Assembly: GCA_018666805.1 (NCBI GenBank)
Contig: JABIXB010000309.1
Location: 1-47,929, forward strand
Reading direction: 5' to 3'
DNA from: Rhodospirillaceae bacterium
GTDB lineage: Bacteria > Pseudomonadota > Alphaproteobacteria > UBA828
Length of the DNA stretch: 47,929 nt
How positions within the stretch are numbered: the first letter of the stretch is position 1; each line of letters begins with the position of its first letter. A program made the position numbers and the translations under genes. The notes under the pieces are model-generated. The model searched no databases. It was not told the origin of the DNA and worked only from the letters and a program-made list of their open reading frames with translations. Of this stretch, positions 28,760 to 37,949 are shown piece after piece.

Positions 28760-30172
28760 ATGGCGAAGAAAGCAAAACCCTCCCCCGCCGCCCTGCCCTC
28801 GGTCGAGCGGCTGGTCGGCGATGCGGCGCTCGCACCGTTCTGCGAAGCCTTTGGCCGGCCCTTCGTAACCGATACGGCACGGGAAGTTATTGCCGAGGCG
28901 CGGGCACGGCTGTTGGCTGGAAAAGATATCGTTACGGATGCGGACGCCCTCGCTGTCCAGGTCGGTGCGCATATCGAAACGCTGATGGCGCCTTCATTGG
29001 TGCCGGTCTTTAACCTGAGCGGCACGGTGCTGCACACCAATCTCGGGCGCGCACCCTTGCCGCCCGAAGCCGTGGCGGCAATGGCGGCGGTGGCAACGGC
29101 GCCAGCCAACCTTGAATATGATATTGCAGCGGGCAAACGCGGCGAGCGCGATGACCATGTCGAAAGCTGGCTCTGCCGCCTCACCGGCGCCGAGGCCGCA
29201 CTGGTGGTCAACAATAATGCCGCTGCCGTGCTGCTGCTGCTCAACAGTCTGGCGTTGCGCAAAAAGGTGGCGGTATCGCGCGGTGAGTTGGTCGAGATCG
29301 GCGGCGCCTTCCGCCTGCCCGACATCATGGCGCGGGCTGGCTGCAAGCTGCTCGAGGTCGGCACCACCAACCGTACGCATGGGCGCGACTTCACCGCCGC
29401 CCTCGAAGACGGCGCGGCGCTGATCCTCAAGGTACATCCGAGCAATTACCAGGTCGCGGGCTTCACGGCCGAAGTTGATACAAGTGAATTGGCCGCCTTG
29501 GCAGCGGACGTGCCGCTCGCCGTCGATCTCGGCTCGGGCGCGTTGGTCGATCTCAGCCGCTACGGCCTGCCGCCCGAGCCGACGGTCGCCGAGACGCTCA
29601 GGGCCGGCGCCGACCTCGTCACCTTTTCCGGCGACAAGCTGCTCGGCGGCCCACAGGCCGGCATCATCGTCGGCAGGCGTGACCTCATCGACCGTATCCG
29701 GCGCAACCCGATGAAGCGCGCGCTCCGGCTCGACAAAATAACGCTGGCGGCGCTCGGCGCCGTGCTCCGCCTCTATGCCAATCCGGAGCAATTGCCGGCA
29801 CGCCTGCCGGCGCTCCGCCTGTTGACCCGCAGCGAGGATGAGATACGCGCCCAGGCCGAGCGACTGCAAGCGCCCTTGGCCGAACGATTGAGCAAAATCG
29901 CCGAGGTTCAGGTGGTGACCTGCATGAGCCAGATCGGCTCCGGTGCACTGCCGGTGGAAACGCTGCCGAGCGCCGCTCTCGCGCTCATGCCACTCGGCGG
30001 CAAACGCCAGTTGGGCGGCGCGCTGAAACGCCTCGCCGCCAGCTTCCGCGCCCTGCCCCAACCGGTGATCGGGCGCACCAGCGATGGCGTTTTCCTGCTC
30101 GACCTGCGCTGCCTCGAAGACGAAGACGGCTTGCGCGGGCAATTCGCTCACCTAGACATAAACAACAGGTGA
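28760..30172 (+). CDS. selA: L-seryl-tRNA(Sec) selenium transferase
   Basis: The 470-residue PLP enzyme converts seryl-tRNA(Sec) to selenocysteyl-tRNA(Sec) using selenophosphate. The family landmarks are present: NLSGTVLHTNLGRAPL near residue 81, the segment LVVNNNAAAVLL near 150, DLGSGALVDL near 256 and the PLP-lysine motif FSGDKLLGGPQAG near 290. Length agrees with bacterial SelA. Its TGA (30170-30172) overlaps the GTG start of selB, so the two are coupled. With tRNA-Sec and selD within 7 kb, all four components of the bacterial system are in this window. Confidence 0.97.
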   Translation: MAKKAKPSPAALPSVERLVGDAALAPFCEAFGRPFVTDTAREVIAEARARLLAGKDIVTDADALAVQVGAHIETLMAPSLVPVFNLSGTVLHTNLGRAPLPPEAVAAMAAVATAPANLEYDIAAGKRGERDDHVESWLCRLTGAEAALVVNNNAAAVLLLLNSLALRKKVAVSRGELVEIGGAFRLPDIMARAGCKLLEVGTTNRTHGRDFTAALEDGAALILKVHPSNYQVAGFTAEVDTSELAALAADVPLAVDLGSGALVDLSRYGLPPEPTVAETLRAGADLVTFSGDKLLGGPQAGIIVGRRDLIDRIRRNPMKRALRLDKITLAALGAVLRLYANPEQLPARLPALRLLTRSEDEIRAQAERLQAPLAERLSKIAEVQVVTCMSQIGSGALPVETLPSAALALMPLGGKRQLGGALKRLAASFRALPQPVIGRTSDGVFLLDLRCLEDEDGLRGQFAHLDINNR

Positions 30173-32106
30173 TTATCGCCACCGCCGGCCATGTCGATCA
30201 TGGCAAAACCAAGCTGGTCGAGGCACTGAGCGGCATCGATACCGACCGCCTGCCGGAGGAAAAACAACGCGGCCTGACCATCGACCTCGGATTTGCTTAC
30301 GTACCGCAGCCCGGCGGCGGTGTGTTGGGTTTCGTCGATGTGCCGGGGCATGAGAAATTCATCCGCAACATGGTCGCCGGCGTCACCGCCATCGATTTTG
30401 CGCTTGTTGTGGTCGCTGCGGATGACGGGCCGATGCCGCAAACCCGCGAGCATCTCGCCATATTGGACCTCCTCGGCGTGCGCCACGGCGCGGTCGCGAT
30501 TACCAAGGCGGATGCCGTTGGCGGTGCGCGCATCAAGGAAGTCGAGATTGCCGTGCGTGAGCTGTTGCACGGCAGCGGGCTTGCGGCGGCGCAAATGTTT
30601 GCCCTCTCGGCCCAGACCGGCGCCGGCGTCGCGGCGCTCAAGGCACATCTCGAGCAAGCAGCGGCAGATCTTTCGGCAATGCCGCCCAGCGGCAACTTCC
30701 GCCTCGCCATCGACCGCGTCTTCAGCCTGACCGGCGCCGGCCTGGTGGTAACCGGCAGCGTTCATTCCGGCCAAGCGGCGCTTGGCGACAGGCTGCTGCT
30801 TTCGCCATCCGGCGCCGAGGTGCGGGTGCGCACCATTCACGTGCACGACCAAAAAGCGGAGCACGCGCGCCAGGGCGTGCGCGCGGCGTTCAACCTGGCC
30901 GGGCCGGGCGCGCGCAAGAGCGCTATCCGGCGCGGCGATTGGCTGGTTCACCCAGACGCGCACGCCACCAGCCGGCGCATCGATGCGCGCATTCGCGTGT
31001 TGCCGGGTGAGGTCAAGGCGCTCAAGCATGAAACAAATGCACATTTGCATCTCGGTGCGCTCGAGGCGCCGTGCCGCATCGCCATCCTCGAAGGGCGTGA
31101 AATTGCGCCCGGCGAGAGCGCCCTGGTGCAGATCATCAGCGAACGCCCAATCACCGTACACGCGCGCGACCGCCTAATCCTGCGCGACCAGTCGGCGCGC
31201 CGCACCGTGGCCGGCGGGCAAGTGATCGATCCGTTCGGGCCTGAGCGCGGGCGCGCGCGTGAAACCCGGCTGGCGATTTTACAGGCGATGTCCGGCGCCA
31301 CGCCGGCGGCGGTGCTGGCCGCCCTGTTGCCGCTCTCACCTGGCGGCCTCGATCTCGCGCGCTTTCAATTGGCCACCAATCTGAGCACGGCGGAAAGCGC
31401 GACCCTCTTTGCCGAAGCGGATATGGTGATGGCCGGCAATGCCACATCCCTGGCCGGCATGGCGCCGGATCATTGGGAAAGGCTTCGCGCAGGCATTGTT
31501 GCCGGCTTGGCGGAATGGCACGAAACCAACCCGGAGACACTCGGCCCGAATGAGTTCGAGCTACGCCGCGGCTTCGCCGAGCGGCCGCTATCGCAACTGT
31601 TCAACGCCGCCATCCTTGAATTGATCGAGCGTGGCGACGTGCGGCGCGCCGGAACCATCCTCCACCTGCCCGCTCACAAAGCCGAGCTGGCGGCGGTTGA
31701 CCACGACCTGTGGCGGCGCATCGAGCCCCTCATGCAAGCGGGCGAACTGCGCCCGCCCGTGCTGTGGGAAATTGCGCCCGTGCTCAAGATCGAAGTCGAG
31801 AAGGTCGAGCGCGTGCTGAAGCGCGCCGCCGCCCTCGGATTGGCCGTACAAGTGACAAAGAACCGCTTTTTCCTACCCGCCGCCGTAAATCGCCTGGCGG
31901 AAATCGCCGAAGAGTTGGCTGGCGAAAGCGAGGACGGCCTATTTCTCGCCGCGGCATACCGCGACCGCTCCGGCATCGGCCGTAATCTCACCATCGAACT
32001 GCTCGAATATTTCGACCGCACCGGCCTCACCCAACGCCACGGCCCGGCCCGCCGTATCCTGGGCTCGGCGGCGGCGCTGTTTGGTAGATTCGGGAAAAAA
32101 GATTAG
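30169..32106 (+). CDS. selB: Selenocysteine-specific translation elongation factor
   Basis: The 645-residue GTPase delivers Sec-tRNA(Sec) to UGA codons with a downstream SECIS hairpin. It has G1 GHVDHGKT at 7-14, G3 DVPGHEKF near 60, the G4 element TKAD near 116, EF-Tu-like beta-barrels, and a C-terminal region of winged-helix repeats (from about 400) that binds the SECIS hairpin. The GTG start at 30169 gives the family N-terminus (V/M)IIATAGHVDHGKT and overlaps selA by four bases. It is convergent with the glycosyltransferase gene. Confidence 0.97.
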   Translation: MIIATAGHVDHGKTKLVEALSGIDTDRLPEEKQRGLTIDLGFAYVPQPGGGVLGFVDVPGHEKFIRNMVAGVTAIDFALVVVAADDGPMPQTREHLAILDLLGVRHGAVAITKADAVGGARIKEVEIAVRELLHGSGLAAAQMFALSAQTGAGVAALKAHLEQAAADLSAMPPSGNFRLAIDRVFSLTGAGLVVTGSVHSGQAALGDRLLLSPSGAEVRVRTIHVHDQKAEHARQGVRAAFNLAGPGARKSAIRRGDWLVHPDAHATSRRIDARIRVLPGEVKALKHETNAHLHLGALEAPCRIAILEGREIAPGESALVQIISERPITVHARDRLILRDQSARRTVAGGQVIDPFGPERGRARETRLAILQAMSGATPAAVLAALLPLSPGGLDLARFQLATNLSTAESATLFAEADMVMAGNATSLAGMAPDHWERLRAGIVAGLAEWHETNPETLGPNEFELRRGFAERPLSQLFNAAILELIERGDVRRAGTILHLPAHKAELAAVDHDLWRRIEPLMQAGELRPPVLWEIAPVLKIEVEKVERVLKRAAALGLAVQVTKNRFFLPAAVNRLAEIAEELAGESEDGLFLAAAYRDRSGIGRNLTIELLEYFDRTGLTQRHGPARRILGSAAALFGRFGKKD

Positions 32107-33403: not shown

Positions 33404-33499
33404 GGAGGAGGATCGCACCCCGGTGGGGCGCCCGGACTTCAAATCCGGTGAGGCGCGTGCGACGTGCCTGGTGGGTTCGACCCCCACCCTCTTCCGCCA
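33404..33499 (+). tRNA. selC: tRNA-Sec (anticodon TCA)
   Basis: The 96-base gene folds as a bacterial selenocysteine tRNA. The 8-bp acceptor stem is GGAGGAGG with CCTCTTCC (one G-T pair), followed by discriminator G and encoded CCA at 33497-33499. A six-pair D-stem with one A-G mismatch and a long variable arm (eight pairs AGGCGCGT/ACGTGCCT) are present. The anticodon arm is CCGGA, loop CTTCAAA, TCCGG, with the anticodon TCA at 33439-33441, and the T-arm is GTGGG-TTCGACC-CCCAC. The segment GGACTTCAAATCC is identical to the anticodon arm of E. coli tRNA-Sec as I remember it. It lies 91 bases before the first UGA-containing gene. Confidence 0.97.
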
Positions 33500-33589: not shown

Positions 33590-34366
33590 ATGAGTGATAA
33601 TACGACCGTTGATGCGGCGGCGTTGCGGGAGGATGTCAAAGACAAATACCGCGCCGTTGCCGTCGATCCCGGCGGCACGTTCCATTTCCATACCGGGCGG
33701 CCCTTGGCCAAGCGGCTTGGTTATGACGATGCGGTGGTCGACCCCCTGCCCGATGCAGCCGTAGAATCCTTTGCCGGCGTCGGCAATCCGTTCGAACTGC
33801 GCACCCTTGAGGCCGGCGAGAAAGTCGTCGATATCGGCTCCGGCGCCGGCTTCGATTGCTTCGTTGCCGCCGCGCAAGTGGGGCCAAGCGGCCAGGTCGT
33901 CGGTATCGACATGACGGAAGAGATGCTGGCCAAGTCGCGCGCCACAGCGAAATCAATGGGTGCCGACAATGTTGAGTTCCGCGAAGGCCTGATTGAAGAC
34001 ATGCCGGTCGAAGACGGTTGGGCCGATGTGGTGATTTCCAACGGCGTGATCAACCTCTGCACCGACAAGCAGCATGTCTTTGGCGAAATCATGCGGGTCA
34101 TGCGCCCGGGCGGCACATTGCAGTTCGCCGATATCGCCAACGGCAAGGAAGTGCCTGCCTCGGCGATAGCAGACATCAACCTCTGGACATCTTGAATTGC
34201 CGGAGGCCTGCCGTGTGCAGGCTGGCGCAAGATGCTGGAAGATTCGGGCTTTACCGATATAGAGATCGGCCCGCCCGTGGATACGTTCGGCGAGGCAAAC
34301 GGCGAGAAGAACGCACGCGCCTTCGAAGTATTTGGCTACGCCTTTCGCGCGGTGAAGCCGCAGTAA
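33590..34366 (+). CDS. Selenocysteine-containing SAM-dependent methyltransferase (ArsM-like)
   Basis: Read through the in-frame TGA at 34193-34195 this is a 258-residue protein with Sec202. The SAM-binding motif VVDIGSGAGFD lies near residue 80, motif post-I Asp in VVGIDMTEEML near 104, and SNGVINLCTDK near 147 closely resembles arsenite methyltransferases. Sec202 sits in SUIAGGLPCAGW, at the place of the conserved Cys in their xGCxxGA segment, and Cys209 follows. After UGA the frame continues with family-like sequence (WRKMLEDSGFTDIEIGPP) to a TAA. GAGGAG precedes the ATG by seven bases. Role inferred: methylation of arsenite or another soft metalloid or chalcogen compound in the cytoplasm. 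Standard translation would wrongly end it at residue 201. Confidence 0.85.
34206..34222 (+). promoter_or_regulatory. Probable SECIS hairpin of the ArsM-like selenoprotein gene
   Basis: A perfect 6-bp stem GCCTGC/GCAGGC with the loop CGTGT starts ten bases after UGA. A lower stem GCC/GGC (34199-34201 with 34224-34226) is possible. Position, size and a G/U-containing apical loop agree with bacterial SECIS elements bound by SelB. The core GCCGTGTGC begins 15 bases after UGA and recurs, with one change, in the GrdB-like gene. Confidence 0.7.
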
Positions 34367-35470: not shown

Positions 35471-36697
35471 ATGGCCCGGCTGCAAGACATCGACGCGCTG
35501 ATGCGCGAGGAATTGATAGAACTCGAATGCCCCAAATTCGGCAGCGACCCGTGGGTCGATGCACCGAAATTAGCCGAGAGCCGGGTGGCCGTGATCTCAA
35601 CCGCCGGGCTACAACGGCGCGGCGACCGGCCGTTCGATCTCGGCGCCGCCGATTATCGCGTCATTTTGGGCGAGACGGCGGCGGAAGATTTGGTCATGAG
35701 CCACATTTCGACCAATTTCGACCGCGCCGGCTATCAGCAGGACATGAATGTCTGCTTCCCCATCGACCGGCTCAATGAACTGGCCGAAGAAGGCGTCATC
35801 GGCTCGGTGGCGAAATACCATTATTCCTTCATGGGGGCGACGGCGCCCGAGGATATGGAAGCGCCAGCGCGCCAACTCGCCGGCCTGCTGAAAGCCGATA
35901 ACGTCAACGCGGTAATGCTCATCCCCGTCTGACCATTTTGCACGCGCGCCGTGGGCGGGCTGGCACATTATTTGGAAGAGGACGGGCTGGCGACGACGCA
36001 GATCAGCCTGATTCGCCTGCACAGCGAAAAAACCCGCCCGCCGCGCGCACTCTGGGTGCCGTTCGAACTCGGCCGCCCGCTCGGCCCGCCAAACGATGCC
36101 GCCTTTCAGCGCCGTGTGCTGATGGCGACACTGGGTCTGTTTGCCGCCAAGAGCGGCCCGGTGCTCGAGGACTACGCGGAAGACGCGGCCAAGGCGACGG
36201 AAGACGAGATGGAAGGCTGGGTGTGCCCGATCAACCTCTCCCCGCCAGCCCTGGAGTCAAACGGCGCGGCGCCGGACGCCGGGGTGATAAGCGAGATGAA
36301 GAGCCTCTGGCCATGGTACGACATGGCGCTGGAAAAGCATGGCCGCAACAATCTCGGCGCCAGCGGCTTGGCGCTTGAAGGTGCGCGCAGCGTCGTGCTG
36401 TCCTTCTCGACCGGCGAGCCCGAGGAGGCATCCGTGCCGGGTGTCTCGCGCGGCGAAGGCCTGCGCCTCGCGGTCGACGACATCAAGGCCTTCTATGTCG
36501 ATGCCGCCACGGCCCAGCCGGGCAACGCCTCGGGCAGCGACGTGCAGGATTGGTTTTGGCGCGAAACGGCGTTCGCCAGGCTGTTGCATGACATGCGCCG
36601 GAAATTGATGGCGAGCTCTGATGAGGAGCTGGCGCTGATCGGCGAATGGTTTCTTGTTCCATCCTCGCATTTGCTCGAGGAGAGCTATTACCGCTAG
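35471..36697 (+). CDS. GrdB-like selenoprotein (glycine/sarcosine/betaine reductase selenoprotein B family)
   Basis: Read through the in-frame TGA at 35930-35932 this gives a 408-residue protein with Sec154 in the redox motif UPFC (U154-x-x-C157). The segments before it (LVMSHIS..., DMNVCFPIDRLNELAEEGVIG, YHYSFMG) and after it (TRAVGGLAHYLEEDGL) are characteristic of the selenoprotein B family, which attacks or reduces C-N or C-X bonds of glycine-type compounds in clostridia. In aerobic proteobacteria the role of these homologues is not established. Residues from about 250 to 408 form an extra C-terminal region I do not recognise. AAGGAGG lies just before the ATG. Confidence 0.88.
35945..35957 (+). 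promoter_or_regulatory. Probable SECIS hairpin of the GrdB-like gene
   Basis: The sequence after UGA can fold as CGC/GCG (or CGCC/GGCG) around a loop containing GTG, with a further TGC/GCA pairing at 35939-35941 and 35963-35965. The fold is weaker than in the methyltransferase gene. The apical sequence GCCGTGGGC starts 16 bases after UGA, nearly the same distance and sequence as in the first gene (GCCGTGTGC), which supports a common SelB target. Confidence 0.5.
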
Positions 36698-36770: not shown

Positions 36771-37343
36771 ATGCAATGGATAAAATCCTACAAAATGGAG
36801 CAGCCGGCGATTTGCGACCGCCTTATCAACGGCTTCAAAATGGCCAAGGAGCTGGGCTTCGTCCATGCCGGCATCAGCGCCAAGGGCGTCGATAAGGAGT
36901 GGAAGGATTCTGAGGATGTCAGCCTCAGCTGCCTGCCGATCGATATTTACACCGAGGTCGTGCATACCTACCGCCAGCATGTGATGGAAAGCATGCAGCT
37001 TTACATGAAGGATTTCCCGGCGCTGGCCACAAGCGGCGCCAAGATCGGTTTTCTCGAGCCGCCGCAAATCCAGCATTACGAGCCGGGCGGCGCCTTTTTC
37101 GGCGATCACTATGAATCGAGCGGGCTCGATCTATCGCACCGTGTGCTCGCCTTCATGACCAACCTCAACACGGTAAAAAAAGGCGGCGGCACGGAGTTTC
37201 TCTATCAGGAATATATCAGTGCGGCCAAAAAGGGCGTCACCAACATCTGGCCGGCCGGCTTCACCCACACTCACCGCGGTATCCCGGCGCCGAAAGAGCA
37301 CAAATACATCATCACCGGCTGGCTCAGCTATATCGGTTCCTGA
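36771..37343 (+). CDS. 2-oxoglutarate/Fe(II) oxygenase-like protein, copy 1
   Basis: The 190-residue protein resembles prolyl 4-hydroxylase-type double-stranded beta-helix enzymes. The line YEPGGAFFGDHYE at 103-115 corresponds to YxxGxxYxxHxD, with His113 and Glu115, so the usual aspartate ligand is glutamate. The distal ligand is His168 in THRGIP and a 2-oxoglutarate-binding Lys178 follows in KYIITGW. A target (protein side chain or small molecule) is not evident. The gene starts 74 bases after the GrdB-like gene, and its second copy lies 33 bases downstream. No good Shine-Dalgarno site precedes the ATG. Confidence 0.75.
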   Translation: MQWIKSYKMEQPAICDRLINGFKMAKELGFVHAGISAKGVDKEWKDSEDVSLSCLPIDIYTEVVHTYRQHVMESMQLYMKDFPALATSGAKIGFLEPPQIQHYEPGGAFFGDHYESSGLDLSHRVLAFMTNLNTVKKGGGTEFLYQEYISAAKKGVTNIWPAGFTHTHRGIPAPKEHKYIITGWLSYIGS

Positions 37344-37376: not shown

Positions 37377-37949
37377 ATGCGATGGATGAGAACCTACGAA
37401 ATGGAGCAGCCCGCCCTGTGCGAGCGCCTGATCGATGGGTTTTACGCGGCCAAGGAGCTTGGCTTTTCTCAACCCGGAATGAGCGCCCGGGGGCTCGATA
37501 AAAGCTGGAAGGATTCCGAGGATGTCAGCATCAATTGCCTGCCTATGGATGATTATTCCAACACCGTGCACGACTATTTCGCCCATGTGATGGCAAGCCA
37601 CAGGCTCTATTTGGCTGAGTTTCCCGAGCTCGCCCGGCACGGCGCCAAGGTCGGCTTTTTGGACCCGCCGCAAATTCAGCATTACGAGCCGGGCGGCGCC
37701 TTCTTCGGCGATCACTATGAATCAAGCGGGCTCGATATCTCTCACCGGGTGCTCGCCTTCCTGACCAGCCTCAACGACATCAAAGAAGGCGGCGGCACCG
37801 AATTTATCGATCAGAAATTCGTCTGCCCGCCCGAGCGTGGCGTCACAAAAATCTGGCCAGCCGGCTTCACCCACACCCACCACGGCGTGCCGGCGCCGAC
37901 GGAAGACAAATTCATCATCACCGGTTGGCTCAGCTATATCGGCTCTTGA
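37377..37949 (+). CDS. 2-oxoglutarate/Fe(II) oxygenase-like protein, copy 2
   Basis: This 190-residue protein has the same length as the preceding gene and no gaps against it; most residues agree, including the segment PPQIQHYEPGGAFFGDHYE with the HxE pair and the distal His-x-G-x-P. The 5' leaders also share GAGAACCC just before the start. The pair is a tandem duplication that has diverged mainly at the N-terminal half and around residues 45-90. The stop overlaps the 3' end of the convergent etfB-like gene by 20 bases. Confidence 0.75.
   Translation: MRWMRTYEMEQPALCERLIDGFYAAKELGFSQPGMSARGLDKSWKDSEDVSINCLPMDDYSNTVHDYFAHVMASHRLYLAEFPELARHGAKVGFLDPPQIQHYEPGGAFFGDHYESSGLDISHRVLAFLTSLNDIKEGGGTEFIDQKFVCPPERGVTKIWPAGFTHTHHGVPAPTEDKFIITGWLSYIGS

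Follow-up and report, generated by a model that had tools for sequence, protein, structure and literature searches.

A stand-alone clade of ArsM-like methyltransferases with a predicted selenocysteine at one arsenic-ligand position

In the arsenite methyltransferase CmArsM, As(III) is bound by three cysteines (Cys72, Cys174 and Cys224), and substitution C174A or C224A abolishes methylation of both iAs and MMA (PMC3877260). An arsenite methyltransferase selenoprotein with a UxxG motif stands among the experimentally verified families in Table 1 of a 2026 review, under NF008823 (PMC13188914), and that review credits it to Fomenko 2007 (Science). The same source lists three further families with a UxxG Sec motif, i.e. 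ArsM_AhpD_UU (NF041537), ArsM_DUF2284_UU (NF041536) and MTase_UXPK_star (NF047649). In an ocean survey of 2008, arsenite S-adenosylmethyltransferase was represented by 8 Sec and 245 Cys forms, and PrdB by 235 Sec forms (PMC2398784). Sec at the UxxG position of an ArsM-like protein is already known; what is new here is a stand-alone clade in which loss of arsenic ligands goes with strict retention of Sec and an invariant Cys157. We found no description of a stand-alone clade devoid of the other arsenic ligands in the literature compared, which leaves out Haft and Tolstoy 2025.

The locus was studied in a window (the whole stretch of DNA analysed, 47,929 nucleotides) from a Rhodospirillaceae bacterium. 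The features considered below are the following:

28760-30172, + strand, selA, Sec synthase (TIGR00474, 567 bits)
30169-32106, + strand, selB, Sec elongation factor (TIGR00475, 431 bits)
33404-33499, + strand, tRNA-Sec (ARAGORN; Rfam RF01852, 72 bits)
33590-34366, + strand, predicted Sec-methyltransferase gene, 258 residues including Sec and then TAA (translation with TGA read as U)
33779-33781, + strand, Val64 codon, equivalent to arsenic ligand Cys72 of CmArsM (pairwise and clade alignments)
34043-34045, + strand, Gly152 codon, equivalent to arsenic ligand Cys174 of CmArsM (pairwise and clade alignments)
34058-34060, + strand, Cys157 codon, invariant across the Sec clade (clade alignment)
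34193-34195, + strand, UGA codon read as Sec202, at the position of CmArsM Cys224 (translation, alignment, homologues)
34205-34223, + strand, SECIS-like hairpin, stem 34205-34211 with 34217-34223 and loop CGTGT at 34212-34216
34214-34216, + strand, Cys209 codon, within the hairpin loop
34391-35455, + strand, selD, selenide water dikinase (NF002098, 533 bits, cut-off 299)
35471-36697, + strand, second predicted selenoprotein gene, PrdB/GrdB-like (TIGR04483, 4.5e-27, below cut-off), with UGA at 35930-35932 (UPFCT)

The methyltransferase frame (33590-34363) holds only one internal TGA, at residue 202, and is closed by the TAA at 34364-34366. A sequence-only reading of this DNA had proposed that coding sequence continues beyond an in-frame UGA; the single UGA within the 258-residue frame bears this out, and every coordinate that it gave proved correct. 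As it had anticipated, standard calling yields a truncated product: under table 11 the UGA is a stop, and the last 57 residues, with the active site, are lost.

The gene lies among genes of the Sec machinery. The tRNA-Sec ends 90 bases before its ATG and selD starts 24 bases past its stop, both being the neighbours that had been reported, and selA and selB, which were absent from that earlier list, lie upstream on the same strand. Among the genomes tested for a tRNA-Sec above 60 bits, 10 of 11 carriers of the gene had one versus 3 of 15 other genomes (Fisher p = 0.001, kinship between genomes not being corrected for). In the sole carrier devoid of a match (G004), the assembly is incomplete and the gene sits at the end of a contig.

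Directly past selD, the PrdB-like gene encodes 408 residues with a C-terminal extension, and standard ORF calling divides it in two. Its co-occurrence with the Sec methyltransferase was perfect across 26 chosen genomes. Within a sample of 385 alphaproteobacteria, it was found in 33, nearly always with a single in-frame TGA; these include all 8 carriers of the methyltransferase. A specific link between the two genes was set aside, the methyltransferase being present in just 8 of these 33 PrdB-like holders, and their association may reflect the Sec trait alone. One alphaproteobacterium (G300) carries multiple PrdB-like genes, of which six each contain a single in-frame TGA. Past the PrdB-like gene of the window, two adjoining similar genes of 190 residues (36771-37343 and 37377-37949) were observed, the first of which matches 2OG-Fe(II) oxygenase.

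To survey relatives, 84,980 species genomes were scanned and 80 relatives retrieved, some loci being one contig fetched twice. In all of the approximately 38 distinct relatives at 51-88 % identity (Proteobacteria, Actinomycetota and SAR324), the codon for residue 202 is UGA; no codon other than TGA was found there in relatives above 50 % identity whose match covers the site. Relatives more distant than about 50 % identity have a Cys codon at this position, with the exception of two that have UGA (L073 and L109). UGA and Cys codons thus alternate at the site across the wider family, as the sequence-only reading had suggested checking, and the Cys form was not found inside the close clade. Within the genus, the gene occurs in four further genomes (84-88 % identity), each time with exactly one TGA, at the residue-202 site, and the 8 carriers among the 385 alphaproteobacteria likewise have one TGA each. 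Carriers are chiefly alphaproteobacterial MAGs, many of them marine, and also include Betaproteobacteria, one Pseudomonadales, three Actinomycetota and one SAR324. The median dN/dS against the window gene in 41 relatives was 0.12 before the UGA and 0.15 after it. In one 77 %-identity relative (L068 5001-5567), the match ends at residue 189, possibly through a frameshift or an assembly error.

Ten bases past the UGA begins a 7-bp stem, which closes a loop of five bases, 17-21 bases past the UGA (CGUGU in the window). In an alignment of 38 distinct sequences, 95.9 % of the cells of this stem are paired, and three pairs are changed on both sides, in 10 cells. None of 500 shuffles matched the observed pairing, the covariation score or the count of double-changed cells; the count of double-changed pairs was matched by 2 of 500, and the number of pair types was unremarkable (90 of 500). 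When the stem partner was slid out of register, pairing fell to 17-45 %. The most frequent double change (G-C to U-A, eight sequences) joins a G to T change at the third base of codon 207 with a change at the second base of codon 210, the latter replacing Ala by Glu or Asp. The SAR324 sequence encodes different residues and still keeps a stem. The case for the hairpin rests on this covariation, because the folding energy gave a weak signal against synonymous-codon shuffles (mean z -0.85, one other segment of the gene reaching -0.84). The helix counted here was taken from single-sequence folds, and the RNAalifold consensus differs from it. We regard this SECIS-like hairpin as a putative SECIS that, together with the adjoining Sec machinery, would help Sec decoding. 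On sequence evidence, readthrough of the UGA as Sec could hardly be more certain, and the gene almost certainly encodes a selenoprotein.

The encoded protein is a class I methyltransferase according to Pfam (Methyltransf_31, 1.5e-33), its best sequence model is the arsenite methyltransferase PRK11873 (8.7e-68), and the closest sequences of solved structure are ArsM proteins. An AlphaFold2 model built from 64 aligned sequences (mean pLDDT 93.8) matched CmArsM best (4fr0, Z 26.3, rmsd 2.4 over 216 aligned residues; 6cx6, Z 25.9), then CrArsM (Z 24.8), the first non-ArsM structure coming at Z 21.4. The region of the SAM motif is strongly conserved, with D81, G83, G85, G87 and D107 invariant. The curated arsenite methyltransferase model NF008823 scored the protein at 228.7 bits, i.e. 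below its cut-off of 263, whereas canonical ArsM controls reached 346.6 (from the same genome) and 305.9 (Streptomyces). The protein resembles the known UxxG selenoprotein in having Sec at the same site (U-I-A-G), in being ArsM-like and in its marine occurrence; the marine Sec forms of the 2008 survey may or may not belong to its clade. With the three double-selenoprotein families it shares the methyltransferase domain (199-222 bits), at scores below their cut-offs of 460-575 bits (NF041536, 208.5 against 575; NF041537, 221.6 against 510; NF047649, 198.6 against 460); these have a second fused domain and two to three Sec, whereas the window protein is stand-alone, with one Sec in 258 residues.

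The fold is shared with CmArsM and human AS3MT (Z 26.3 and 19.4, respectively), and so is the site aligned with their Cys224 and Cys206. Pairwise alignment places Cys72, Cys174 and Cys224 of CmArsM at Val64, Gly152 and Sec202; the UGA does correspond to a metalloid-binding cysteine, as the sequence-only reading had it, and Cys occupies this position in distant relatives. The other two ligands (Cys61 and Cys156 in the human enzyme) are replaced, and the three As(III)-binding cysteines read V64, G152 and U202. This holds for the whole Sec clade, with Val at position 64 in 39 of 40 rows and Gly at position 152 in 40 of 40, whereas among other relatives Cys was found in 45 of 49 at each of these two positions. 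The designation as arsenite-methyltransferase-like therefore stands for homology and fold, and does not extend to the As(III) ligands, lost clade-wide, or to the curated cut-off. The protein is very probably derived from ArsM without being a canonical ArsM.

Two other cysteines were considered. Position 157 is Cys in all 40 rows of the Sec clade and Ser, Ala or Val in most ArsM. Pairing of Cys157 with Sec202 was complete in a first set (50/50 versus 0/6), and a strict coupling was discarded on account of two distant Gly152-type methyltransferases (L154 and L155, from Pseudomonadota and Methylomirabilota MAGs) that have UGA at the site and Ser157. The cysteine seven residues after the UGA, on which attention had been drawn, is indeed present as Cys209 (37 of 40 rows, missing from several members), and its conservation may reflect an RNA rather than a protein constraint, given that the hairpin loop contains its codon.

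Could the protein nevertheless be a true arsenite methyltransferase, Sec replacing one ligand, the others being dispensable, and Cys157 and Cys209 serving as new ligands? The PRK11873 match and the ArsM fold speak for this, as does the preserved count of three chalcogens (Cys157, Sec202 and Cys209). The equivalent of Cys174 is gone, however, and CmArsM deprived of it methylates neither iAs nor MMA (PMC3877260); the score falls under the NF008823 cut-off; and Cys209 sits in the SECIS-like loop and is absent from several members. Arsenic resistance genes were not found next to the window gene, which adjoins selenium genes instead, and a canonical ArsM gene overlapping an ArsR-like regulator gene was found elsewhere in the same genome, at locus L002:

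L002 1384-2202, - strand, canonical ArsM, with equivalents of Cys64, Cys152 and Cys202 and N-terminal CC motifs
L002 2199-2615, - strand, ArsR-like regulator

A division of labour between this canonical ArsM and the Sec enzyme would be the natural reading. We consider a true arsenite methyltransferase unlikely, and the simpler proposal of one with a single ligand exchanged is not supported, two ligands being missing.

A tree built after removal of the trait columns grouped the Sec clade (44 rows, SH-aLRT 97) and placed it, with a support of 81, as sister to haloarchaeal proteins in which Val64 and Gly152 are likewise present, together with Cys202 and Ser157. Since the tree of the entire set calls for no fewer than five switches between Sec and Cys, the two residues alternate at this site; long branches (L168, L154 and L073) make the exact number of changes unsure. 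One change falls inside canonical ArsM, in a Thermodesulfovibrionales sequence (L109) that keeps Cys64 and Cys152, unlike the window clade with its Val and Gly. This canonical ArsM (L109 / L163) has UGA at the Cys224 site and both other arsenic cysteines, apparently through an independent origin of Sec. As judged from these alignments, the stand-alone clade has lost the Cys72 and Cys174 ligands and kept the third ligand position as predicted Sec. Two actinobacterial genomes each have two Gly152-type Sec methyltransferases (L064 and L157 in Pseudonocardia asaccharolytica; L158 and L168 in a Nitriliruptoraceae) and an additional Cys152 ArsM-like copy.

The haloarchaeal sister proteins (L134-L137, 44-48 % identity) are of the same Val64/Gly152 type as the window protein and differ by Cys rather than Sec at 202 and Ser rather than Cys at 157. 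They are encoded on plasmids, where an OsmC gene is directly followed by the Cys-form methyltransferase gene; two of these plasmids also have a DUF1059 gene on the upstream side and, downstream, an uncharacterised gene of similar size. No recurrent neighbour gene was found in 39 loci outside the genus, and operon partners, which are also inconsistent among the Cys and the distant Sec relatives, were discarded as a clue to the substrate.

Our preferred interpretation, which we hold to be likely, is that of a Sec-containing class I SAM-dependent methyltransferase of the ArsM superfamily, forming its own clade without two of the ligands, which would act through a Sec adduct on a substrate other than free arsenite. 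The selenolate of Sec202, at the metalloid site of ArsM and presumably beside the methyl group of SAM, would trap, as a Se adduct, some soft electrophilic species of a metalloid, chalcogen or metal. Such an electrophile would need one or two chalcogen contacts, e.g. in a monomethylated or thiol-bound form, which we infer to fit better than free arsenite. After methyl transfer, the adduct would be resolved via a Sec202-Cys157 selenenylsulfide, to be reopened by a cellular thiol reductant. Cys157 is the best candidate for this resolution, and its pairing with Sec202 is a guess, because the distant Sec relatives L154 and L155 have Ser157. Free arsenite is unlikely to be the substrate in the cell; that the substrate contains no arsenic at all is proposed with only modest confidence. 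The detailed chemistry at Sec202 and Cys157 is offered tentatively, and it is similarly conjectural that the family at large is a widespread ArsM-derived Sec methyltransferase modifying a non-arsenic soft substrate (Se, Te, S or a metal) via a Cys157-resolved Se intermediate.

The protein could alternatively be a redox protein first and foremost, with the methyltransferase fold kept and Sec202 in a peroxidase-like or thiol oxidoreductase role. Related methyltransferases occur in NCBI-named fusions with AhpD, DUF2284 and UXPK-star selenoprotein domains, haloarchaeal Cys forms directly follow an OsmC gene, and Cys157 is invariant in the clade; the AhpD-type fusions and the OsmC-methyltransferase pair are hints of a redox context. 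Methyl transfer is probably kept, however, because the SAM motif region is so strongly conserved (D81, G83, G85, G87 and D107), and we deem a primarily redox function improbable. By far the weakest alternative, that the UGA is a genuine stop or marks a pseudogene or a sequencing error, has the table 11 reading in its favour and a negligible probability: the UGA is kept in about 38 distinct sequences with Cys in outgroups, constraint persists past it (dN/dS 0.15), the covarying hairpin and complete Sec machinery adjoin it, and sequencing error, looked for as a possible refutation, is excluded because the UGA is common to independently assembled genomes.

For the family, an ArsM-derived methyltransferase with predicted Sec raises a testable question, i.e. 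why Sec is invariant at one arsenic-ligand position despite loss of the other two. Homologues of the gene match an arsenite methyltransferase model. The answer would caution against scoring such genes as arsenic methylation genes when marine data are surveyed, and would separate the roles that Sec may play in these proteins: metalloid ligand, methyl acceptor or redox residue.
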